64,000 bases of DNA from Lineus longissimus (Eukaryota; Nemertea; Pilidiophora; Heteronemertea; Lineidae), in assembly GCF_910592395.1 (NCBI RefSeq), contig NC_088318.1:3782001-3846000 (forward strand), written 5' to 3'. Shown in pieces: positions 29,270-39,810 of this stretch (positions within the stretch are counted from its first letter, which is position 1; each line of letters starts with the position of its first letter). Below the pieces are notes generated by a model that was given only the letters and a program-made list of their open reading frames with translations, was not told where the DNA came from and searched no databases. The position numbers were made by a program, and so were the translations under genes.

Positions 29270-29612
29270 ATGGCAACTGGGAAGTCTTCACAGGAAATAT
29301 ACATTCTCCTTCAAGAGCATGCGACCATTACCAACTCACCTTCTCTGAAAAAAAACTTTTTCAAAAAATCCCTGAAGACAAAAAAGAAGGATAAAAACGA
29401 ATCAAAATCGGCTCAGTATGTGCCGGCTGGAAGTCTGTTGCGCAAAGATTTAGATACTGAAAAACAGGAAGTGTACTTATCGCTGTCAGAAGGTTGCAGT
29501 ATCAGTTGTGCATCGTCGGCTGTTGCCGAGCTAAGCGATGAGGAGTACAAACTTCTGGAGGGAATTCACCCCTGTGCAGAGAGGATTAAAAGGTACAATT
29601 TGAAAACAAAAG
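29270..29612 (+). CDS. Caspase exon 1: CYLD-like N-terminal domain
   Basis: Encodes residues 1-114. Three blocks match the first exon of the CYLD-like gene at 48326. IYILLQE lies at residues 10-16 (there RYILRKE, also 10-16). YVPAGSL at 50-56 matches NVLPGTL at 38-44. [17 protein letters not shown] at 91-107 matches GEYELLASISTCADRMK at 86-102, with 9 of 17 identical. The same order of blocks (LLLQE, VPKGSI, ELLLAITNCEERF, recalled and not aligned by program) opens human CYLD. Here the exon stops just where the CAP-Gly domain would begin. The exon ends in phase 1 with a GTAAGA donor. Confidence 0.8.
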
Positions 29613-38600: not shown

Positions 38601-39810
38601 CATCCTCCTCCTCCTCGTCATCGTCATTATCATCTTGTCATCATCATTATTCCTCCGTTTCTTTTCCCTTGTGGATTCCAAGTCGAGGCTTTCCTGGTAA
38701 TGCTCGAGATGGGCTTCCTGATAACGGGGGAATAATCTACCTCCATTTGCACTTGAGGATCGACCTCCTTAAATTGACTTGGGCTTGCCGAGTTCTCCCT
38801 CAAGTAGTTGGTAGTAATGGTCTGTTATTATTTGCAGGGAAGCCGAAGCTGATGTTCATACAAGCTTGCCGCGGCCGTGCCTTTCAGGGTGGTCACAGGG
38901 TACAGGGAGAAGCTGACCCACATGATGGCATAGGTGAAACAGTTGATCTGAACGTGGCTGAAACCATCCCCCCTCCACATGTGTCAATCCCAAATGATTC
39001 TGACATCCTGGTGGCCTATGCCCAGACACCAGGTGAGTCATACAAAAGCTCTTGGGTAAAGATATTATCAGCAGTATAAAATCACAGCATCCCCTTTTGG
39101 AGCTTAATATAAAGAAATCTCCAATGGAGTGTTCGTTCAAAAATTTTAATTGAATTTCAGATTTGTTGATTATCTTTATACAGCTTAAGGCCAAACTTTT
39201 TTAATAAGTTGGAATACGAAATTATGTGGGTGGGGCGAGAATAAAAGAAAAAAATAAAATAAATATTCATCTTCAATCTCAAAACTTATGTGGGGCTGGA
39301 ATAAAAGAAAATTCCATCAGACTCAAAATTTATGTGAGGCAGGGGAAATAAAATAAAAACATGATCTTTTTCATCAATTTTAGTCTCAGATCATACAAGG
39401 GGTCCAAAAAATAAAAATTTGTCGTCAGGAAATTTTTTTTCTCCAGTTTCCGGAAAATGACCCCAGGGGGATTCGTAATCCAACAAATAAAAAAATGTGG
39501 CCTAAGAATGAATTTCAACATTCAACAAAAAGTCTCCTTAGAAAACATCTTATTCTCTTGTTTATCATTCCTTTTTCCAGGTAAACAAGCCTTTCGTGAC
39601 ATGAGAGTAGGATCTTGGTTCATCCAGGCTGTGACAGATATTTTCCGTGCCTATCATGAACGCTATGACGTCCTAAGCATGATGACTATGGTCAGTAACG
39701 CTGTGAGTTACATGAGCCGTCAAAATCCTGATGGCAGCGAACACAAACAGTCACCAATAATTCAACATACGCTCCGAAAGAAAATGTTCATGCTGAGGGC
39801 TTCTGCGTGA
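29270..39810 (+). CDS. Caspase with CYLD-like N-terminus and repeated YVN linker
   Basis: Cysteine protease predicted to cleave after Asp. Exons: 29270-29612, 30631-30702, 31040-31351, 32287-32370, 33031-33114, 33949-34032, 34562-34672, 35619-35687, 36041-36190, 37117-37218, 37704-37891, 38156-38279, 38838-39032 and 39581-39810. This model is 715 aa and omits three optional 'A' exons. Nearly every junction is phase 1. Residues 1-114 resemble the CYLD N-terminus; 115-450 are an acidic, Pro-rich linker with tyrosine motifs; about 455-715 are the p20/p10 caspase fold. The catalytic His is in GHGDE (codon 37880-37882) and Cys585 in QACRG (codon 38867-38869). The S1 residues Arg (DREGS), Gln (QACRG) and Arg (AFRD) are all present, so it should be active. 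No DED or CARD is seen. That the 5' and 3' exons form one mRNA rests on phase agreement; two genes are the alternative. Confidence 0.85.
30429..30612. repeat. Dispersed 'TCCTTAATAGAGAGGTGTCC' repeat, copy 1
   Basis: Starts GTAGAACCTTTCTATTAAGG and contains several GTCCTTAATAGAGAGG units plus AATGGAAACAACCA. The same family recurs at 42368-42467 with 42884-42925 and at 61490-61740. The copy lies just upstream of the caspase exon 2 acceptor (30630). Confidence 0.7.
31040..31351 (+). CDS. Caspase exon 3: Pro/Ser-rich linker
   Basis: 104 residues between phase-1 borders. It contains PPALPKTN and [12 protein letters not shown], Pro-rich stretches of the type bound by SH3 domains, then a Ser-rich segment and an acidic EEDDD end. 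No folded domain is recognised. It directly precedes the triplicated A/B exons. Confidence 0.75.
31887..32092 (+). CDS. Optional caspase exon A1 (YVN motif, stop-terminated)
   Basis: Acceptor TTGATAG|ATCTC, entered in phase 1 like its neighbours. It encodes [20 protein letters not shown], then an acidic stretch and [15 protein letters not shown] fits the pYxN consensus for Grb2-type SH2 domains. By comparison with exon C (34562-34672) the splice donor should lie after AAAG at 32033, which would give an in-frame 147-nt exon. The sequence there is GAAGGG and not GT. Read through, the frame stops at 32092, giving a 310-aa product without protease domain. Confidence 0.55.
32287..32370 (+). CDS. 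Caspase exon B1
   Basis: 84 nt, phase 1-1, TTCTTCAG acceptor and GTGGGT donor. Encodes [20 protein letters not shown] then YFSDVPGQ. Acidic, with a tyrosine after DDEH. Skipping it keeps the frame. Confidence 0.75.
32631..32836 (+). CDS. Optional caspase exon A2
   Basis: Identical in sequence to A1 as far as can be read by eye, with the same acceptor, the same missing GT at the expected donor (after 32777) and the same stop. See A1. Confidence 0.5.
33031..33114 (+). CDS. Caspase exon B2
   Basis: 84 nt, phase 1-1, same as B1. Its identity with B1 indicates a very recent duplication or gene conversion. Confidence 0.75.
33543..33754 (+). CDS. Optional caspase exon A3 with a replaced acceptor
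   Basis: Same coding body as A1/A2 (with T-A-I for T-I, V-E for I-E, G-G-S for R-G-S and D-E-N-E for D-E-D-E changes) and the same stop. The native TTGATAG acceptor is gone. Upstream is a 78-bp segment (33472-33549) that duplicates 34673-34750, and the new AG is CTGCAG|GAGATAAT, still in phase 1. Confidence 0.5.
33949..34032 (+). CDS. Caspase exon B3
   Basis: 84 nt, phase 1-1. Encodes the B motif with changes ([15 protein letters not shown]), so the aromatic pair after H has become Y-S-N. This is the oldest of the B copies by divergence. Confidence 0.75.
34562..34672 (+). CDS. Caspase exon C (ancestral-type YVN exon)
   Basis: 111 nt, phase 1-1, TTCTTACAG acceptor and GTATGA donor. Encodes an acidic run [10 protein letters not shown] then [24 protein letters not shown] is the counterpart of TEPHYVNV in the A exons. 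A hairpin MITE begins within about 10 bp of the donor. Confidence 0.75.
34673..34871. mobile_element. Short MITE of the TATGTGACC...AGGCGC family
   Basis: Left end (TATGTGACCCATCACAGCAA, AACCAGGCGCATGTTGC) and right end (GCAACATGCGCCAGGTTTTG) are inverted. Relatives are the hairpin at 60286-60514, a fragment at about 30205-30255 and the 78-bp duplicate at 33472-33549. Confidence 0.7.
34970..35235. repeat. Three tandem GTAAAGCGCTTTGAGA units
   Basis: Units of about 100 bp begin at about 34978, 35087 and 35171, each with AAAGC(A/G)CTTTGAGA(C/T)AGTAC. The same core occurs singly near 25470 and 38540 (GAAGCGCTT(T/C)GAGACAG). This core looks like the conserved 3' part of a retroposon family; assignment is inference. 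Confidence 0.6.
36312..36848. mobile_element. 537-bp MITE flanked by TTAA (piggyBac-like)
   Basis: Left end TTAACACTTTCAGCGCC at 36312 and inverse GGCGCTGAAAGTGTTAA ending at 36848. TTAA sits at both borders as expected for piggyBac-type insertion. Internal ACGTAATTTTACGT and ACGTAATATTACGT palindromes lie near the left end. Located in the intron between caspase exons E and F. Confidence 0.8.
37117..39810 (+). CDS. Caspase catalytic exons F-J (p20 and p10)
   Basis: Exon F (37117-37218) gives the first strand, [10 protein letters not shown], and the S1 Arg in DREGS. Exon G (37704-37891) gives [10 protein letters not shown] and the His in FILGHGDE. Exon H (38156-38279) leads to LKTMAGKPK. Exon I (38838-39032) has MFIQACRG, the intersubunit linker, then [10 protein letters not shown]. 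Exon J (39581-39810) has GSWFIQAV and the small-subunit C-terminus. The linker between QACRG and ILVAYAQT contains several Asp (ADPHDG, ETVDLN) that could be processing sites; which is used is unknown. Confidence 0.92.

Follow-up and report, generated by a model that had tools for sequence, protein, structure and literature searches.

What does a caspase carry at its N-terminus when no death fold can be detected there? The question is raised by a gene at 29270–39810 on the plus strand of a 64,000-nucleotide stretch of the nemertean Lineus longissimus (assembly GCF_910592395.1, contig NC_088318.1, positions 3,782,001 to 3,846,000; this whole stretch is called the window, and positions are given within it). 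Its product joins a caspase domain to a segment that resembles the N-terminus of CYLD. The initiator caspases (caspase-2, -8 and -9) are alike in having a long N-terminal region ahead of a caspase domain with the His/Cys dyad, but carry a CARD or DED prodomain at the end where the Lineus caspase has the CYLD-like segment. CYLD, considered here as the protein of Tubulanus polymorphus and as an exon neighbouring the Lineus caspase gene, has the N-terminal segment in common with the caspase, the likeness being best in the block before the first CAP-Gly domain (CAP-Gly1). By contrast, the CAP-Gly and USP catalytic domains of CYLD were not detected in the Lineus caspase.

A caspase gene with a CYLD-like first exon

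Thirteen exons between 29270 and 39810 reproduce, residue for residue, the 692-residue uncharacterized protein LOC135496340 isoform X2 of Lineus longissimus (P0001), so that the CYLD-like and the caspase exons, which the earlier note had assigned to one gene, are already joined in NCBI's own annotation. With residues 1–125 as query this protein, 100% identical and carrying PF00656, was the sole match at E ≤ 10 among 196 candidates; the protein searches used here detect only proteins that share exact five-residue words. Isoform X2 belongs to a cluster of three member sequences, and names of this kind mark predicted models. All 12 introns have GT–AG ends and leave one open frame, with 11 of them in phase 1 and a single phase 0 intron at 37891/38156, inside the caspase domain, so that the uniform phase 1 claimed previously has to be given up. 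Exon 1 (29270–29612; residues 1–114) is open, begins with ATG downstream of an in-frame stop, and closes with a GTAAGA donor in phase 1. Methionines occur at residues 1, 144, 148 and 153 and next only at 490. Since the caspase domain extends from residue 434 and there is no methionine between 153 and 490, translation of the whole domain has to begin in exons 1–3; a shorter product begun in exon 3, which would lack the CYLD-like part, is possible.

The caspase domain itself is a clear match. Pfam assigns residues 434–686 to Peptidase_C14 (E 1e-36, profile positions 2–233 of 233), and in an alignment with four other caspases the catalytic His507 (GHGDE) and Cys562 (QACRG) are invariant, as are Arg446, Gln560 and Arg622, an Arg/Gln/Arg pocket that we take to bind the substrate Asp. 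By domain and motif membership the protein is a caspase, active-looking as judged from its sequence, and the intact active site noted earlier is confirmed. The domain starts in exon 9 (37117–37218); exon 10 (37704–37891), which contains His507 and ends in phase 0, and exon 11 (38156–38279) encode the large subunit, exon 12 (38838–39032) the QACRG motif with Cys562 and the inter-subunit linker, and exon 13 (39581–39810) the small subunit and the stop codon. Among solved structures the best matches were caspase-9 and then caspase-3, with only caspases and no USP domain among the best 60 of 188 matches (this search used a variant model with one repeat exon instead of three, plus the stretch 35619–35687). 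Peptidase_C14 was the only Pfam match of isoform X2 at E ≤ 1, CARD, DED, DD, PYD and CAP_GLY all being absent at this threshold. A USP-type deubiquitinase domain was likewise not matched by Pfam; this database alone is blind to the domain here, since it also gave no USP match at E ≤ 1 in the true CYLD of Tubulanus. NCBIfam returned nothing for either protein.

Exon 1 was compared with the exon that opens the coding sequence of the nearby CYLD gene (48326–48796) and with the CYLD of Tubulanus. The Smith–Waterman score is 81 against the Lineus CYLD exon (shuffles 28.3 ± 4.9, none of 2000 reaching it) and again 81 against Tubulanus CYLD (0 of 2000 shuffles), and BLASTP of the full Tubulanus CYLD against the full caspase protein returned a 33-residue match in the CYLD-like region at E 4e-4. 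When a profile built from the CYLD N-termini of the two nemerteans was searched against the 1319 stop-to-stop open reading frames of at least 30 residues in the six frames of the window, the CYLD exon, itself part of the profile, was found at E 2.7e-73, exon 1 at E 1.3e-5 and the next frame at E 0.17. The profile comparison of residues 1–114 with CYLD N-termini, set beforehand as a test of the resemblance, came out clearly in its favour: hhalign aligned the nemertean profile to exon 1 over 101 columns with a probability of 79.8 and a score of 34.65, while 200 shuffles reached at most 10.08, the N-termini of 15 other caspases at most 6.96 and five other stretches of the same protein at most 8.76. 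It is therefore supported that the gene encodes a caspase whose N-terminus is related to CYLD and in which no death fold was detected, the homology lying above both the shuffles and the other caspases, and CARD, DED, DD and PYD giving no match.

The signal is unevenly distributed along the exon. Residues 77–114 are, beyond reasonable doubt, homologous to the CYLD N-terminus: none of 3000 shuffles matched their score against either CYLD. Within them 9 of the 17 positions at residues 91–107 are identical, as counted on the alignments, and over a longer span the last block is identical to CYLD at 13 of 32 residues. For residues 1–60 the score against Lineus CYLD was reached by 93 or 134 of 3000 shuffles, and that against Tubulanus CYLD by 158 or 354. 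Of the three shared blocks proposed earlier, the last is thus significant, while those at residues 10–16 and 50–56 are collinear with CYLD and unconvincing by themselves; their correspondence is plausible only. The position at the start of the protein and the spacing agree between exon 1 and CYLD. Human CYLD, entered here as a provisional sequence, scored 65 against Lineus CYLD (0 of 1000 shuffles) and 44 against Tubulanus CYLD (2 of 1000), and 41 against the caspase exon. By these scores the segment seems to be an ancient portion of CYLD, and the copy in the caspase is closer to the nemertean CYLDs than to the human one; the likely direction of copying is from CYLD to the caspase.

In the alignment, exon 1 ends just before the start of CAP-Gly1 in CYLD, whereas the CYLD exon runs about 50 codons further to a phase 0 donor. 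Given the different exon length and donor phase, exon 1 is not simply the CYLD exon duplicated together with its splice site. The plus-strand sequence upstream of exon 1 has nothing alignable to that upstream of the CYLD exon (one 12-base match, E 0.63), so that a promoter copied along with the exon has left no similarity on this strand.

A proposed docking segment or a borrowed start

In the reading favoured here, which is held tentatively, the exon 1 segment is homologous to the CYLD N-terminus preceding CAP-Gly and may dock the inactive caspase to the binders of that N-terminus. The segment would have been copied from CYLD, a same-strand neighbour 8.5 kb away, and would have kept CYLD's binding preference. 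Zymogens crowded on a shared partner could then be activated by induced proximity, as with the CARD and DED prodomains of initiator caspases, and a death protease would be linked straight to a ubiquitin-signalling complex. Docking to CYLD's partners is the preferred mechanism, and a role as recruitment domain is plausible. A more far-reaching version, in which the caspase uses the N-terminal docking module of CYLD instead of a death fold and is thereby permanently tied to CYLD's ubiquitin-signalling complex, is rather doubtful.

The published work offers several points of comparison. The prodomains of initiator caspases act as recruitment domains (PMC7836458), and residues 1–303 of human CYLD provide the main HDAC1/2 binding, the N-terminus being called the target-binding part (PMC10824711); this region exceeds the shared segment and takes in CAP-Gly1 too. 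In mammals CYLD removes ubiquitin from RIPK1 and in this way promotes the activation of caspase-8, which for its part cleaves CYLD (PMC10320722). A segment of CYLD covalently joined to an invertebrate caspase would suggest an old or a re-invented partnership. The substrate mimic, which the earlier note had offered as an alternative to recruitment, is unsupported. In mammalian CYLD caspase-8 cuts at Asp215 (PMC13045489), and CAP-Gly1 comprises residues 127–203 (PMC10320722); since Asp215 lies beyond CAP-Gly1 and the shared segment ends before this domain, the site is outside the shared segment.

Caspases with odd prodomains are already known among invertebrates and are alike in that the caspase is fused with a domain of a different signalling protein. 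They include an oyster caspase with a double-stranded RNA-binding prodomain (PMC7836458), mussel caspases with FN3 or PB1 (PMC10967218), and a TNFR-caspase and an LRR-caspase of amphioxus, presented as hybrid genes (PMC2575513). The term CYLD does not occur in the main text of these three papers or of PMC3196919, and no caspase with a CYLD part was found among the literature titles and opening lines of abstracts listed, a coverage that leaves out most subscription journals. A CYLD-type N-terminus is a new addition to this set, and the Lineus protein itself is not a CYLD. A covalent link of this kind would also add a way of recruiting caspases that is independent of death folds. If the more far-reaching version is true, this route is new and the gene is a natural experiment revealing what the orphan N-terminal segment of CYLD binds. 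The fusion also offers an approach to a part of CYLD that is not matched by any Pfam family. The interest is limited by its occurrence in one species, by the 38 strongly conserved residues, and by the fact that no function was found for the segment in CYLD.

A number of results weigh against docking. Residues 1–76 do not resemble CYLD convincingly: of 3000 shuffles, 273 attained their score against Lineus CYLD in local and 444 in global alignment, and against Tubulanus CYLD 371 and 229 did so. With the signal confined to the 38 residues 77–114, a whole docking domain may not have been retained. The score of the caspase exon against the provisional human CYLD sequence was reached by 18 of 1000 shuffles and is unconvincing alone. 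A profile of the three N-termini found nothing better among solved structures than the PIT54 protein (E 0.21), and Pfam nothing better than Nse5 (E 0.13, in one of the three sequences), both taken as chance. AlphaFold models of both N-termini, built from three-row alignments, reached predicted local distance difference test (pLDDT) values of 40.8 and 33.9 and thus give no support for a fold; because these models failed, a very diverged death fold is possible. In the CYLD literature consulted, as far as the available parts extend, no partner or function is mapped to the segment before CAP-Gly alone, and those of PMC4906230 map nothing to the CYLD N-terminus. The search with residues 1–125 returned no other relative among its 196 candidates, which leaves the arrangement in one species. 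The caspase region, too, is without a close relative: with residues 362–692 as query, 16 proteins including itself were found at E ≤ 1e-6 among 953 candidates, the best-scoring other protein being 29% identical and all 15 others 26–35%. Finally, the protein search with the CYLD exon returned no Lineus CYLD among 231 candidates.

The rival that survives best, although we consider it unlikely, is that the caspase gene took over its transcription start and start codon from a copy of the CYLD promoter and first exon, and that the segment has since drifted without docking to anything. The two genes are same-strand neighbours, a TATA-box-like TATATAA lies at 29039–29045, about 230 bp before the start codon of exon 1, where it could belong to a promoter, and residues 1–76, most of the segment, are no longer like CYLD beyond chance. 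The missing upstream similarity on the plus strand neither helps this explanation nor excludes it. Against drift stand the 13 of 32 identities kept in the last block and the segment's equal score of 81 against the CYLDs of Lineus and Tubulanus, which differ from each other at about 22% of positions in the compared segment; if the copy is as old as this equality suggests, the block was probably under selection.

Improbable, by comparison with docking, is a decoy, in which the segment would occupy a partner of CYLD and so limit CYLD, with the caspase as cargo or switch. It would account equally for the homology seen with hhalign and for the lack of any detected CAP-Gly or deubiquitinase domain in the caspase protein, but such binding is putative and the active-looking caspase domain makes a pure decoy less economical.

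It is very improbable that the gene model is a chimera, with exon 1 (perhaps as far as exon 3 or so) and the caspase exons on different mRNAs. Intronic AATAAA motifs occur at 29793, 34804 and 36704, with six more in the last intron (39240–39486), the gene is known here from annotation and sequence, and the available part of the genome paper (PMC8593623) gives no transcript evidence for it. However, NCBI joins the two halves in a named isoform within its three-member cluster, and all 12 GT–AG introns preserve one frame. Two separate genes are unlikely for the same reason, as the isoform spans both halves and the gap between Met153 and Met490 would leave the second without a start for its full domain. 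A resemblance due to chance, or to convergence towards a short helix motif, deserves hardly any credence: the restriction of the signal to 38 residues and the 18 of 1000 shuffles against the provisional human CYLD sequence speak for it, but no shuffle matched residues 77–114 against either nemertean CYLD, the position and spacing agree, and the profile comparison lies far above its controls.

Linker, neighbouring CYLD exon and surroundings

Between the segment favoured as a docking module and the protease lies a long linker, which begins with exon 2 (30631–30702) and continues with the Pro/Ser-rich exon 3 (31040–31351), containing the codons of Met144, Met148 and Met153. It is followed by three copies of an acidic 28-residue exon derived from a duplicated module, namely exons 4 (32287–32370), 5 (33031–33114) and 6 (33949–34032), by the acidic exon 7 (34562–34672), and by exon 8 (36041–36190) directly before the caspase domain. 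The module, with two candidate exons, is repeated within 31626–34032, such that two copies 744 bp apart show 99–100% identity in the listed pieces; a third copy follows after another 918 bp and shows 98% identity along a single 300-nucleotide piece. Isoform X2 takes only the second exon of each module and so uses this small exon in three tandem copies; the first (LTPETSS...TEPHYVNV) is without a convincing donor. A possible optional exon at 35619–35687, with splice sites in phase 1 on both sides and an open frame, is absent from isoform X2. Motifs of the form PxExx[acidic/aromatic], presumably the TRAF6-like consensus, occur at residues 235, 247, 275 and 303 and were set aside as candidates, since as many were found in 416 of 5000 shuffles with one repeat copy. 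The YVNL at residue 355 is a motif that we take to be Grb2-like. In the intron before the caspase domain, a 537-bp stretch (36312–36848) is bounded by perfect 17-bp terminal inverted repeats that start with TTAA and resembles a small non-autonomous DNA transposon, its ends presumably recalling piggyBac.

The neighbouring CYLD exon (48326–48796, plus strand) comprises 157 codons, which encode the N-terminal segment and then the start of CAP-Gly1, and ends with a phase 0 donor. Over these 157 residues it is 73% identical to the CYLD-like protein of Tubulanus polymorphus (P0002), the only protein at E ≤ 10 among the 231 candidates of the search with this exon. Its CAP_GLY match is partial and below the Pfam cut-off (19.6 of 26.5 bits). 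The Tubulanus protein has three CAP-Gly stretches and matches the solved USP domain of CYLD at E 8.8e-116. With Tubulanus CYLD as query no CYLD exon beyond the first was found in the window, and the search with the exon returned no Lineus CYLD; the neighbour is presumed to be a complete CYLD gene.

Downstream of the caspase stop codon, AATAAA at 40255–40260 is the probable polyadenylation signal. Between the caspase gene and CYLD, at 46046–46692, short tandem arrays of a 20–22-bp unit (GTTTCGCTACATG...) occur in both orientations. Upstream of the caspase gene, exons matching Pfam AA_permease_2 at 4294–4575 (E 3.8e-9) and 18834–19115 (E 2.3e-7) point to an amino-acid transporter gene, and arrays of a 301-bp repeat at 9417–10075 and 17430–18088 have an identical printed consensus. 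The minus-strand open reading frame at 19384–19878 encodes a peptide that is presumably a translated tRNA-derived short interspersed nuclear element. ARAGORN found no tRNA in the window, an Rfam scan of it returned nothing, and phage records gave no match to it. Beyond the CYLD exon, a 21-bp minisatellite of about 39 copies (53024–53839) is open in long frames on both strands; its minus-strand frame matches Pfam MINT_RAM7 below the cut-off (97.7 of 108 bits), probably as a repeat artefact.

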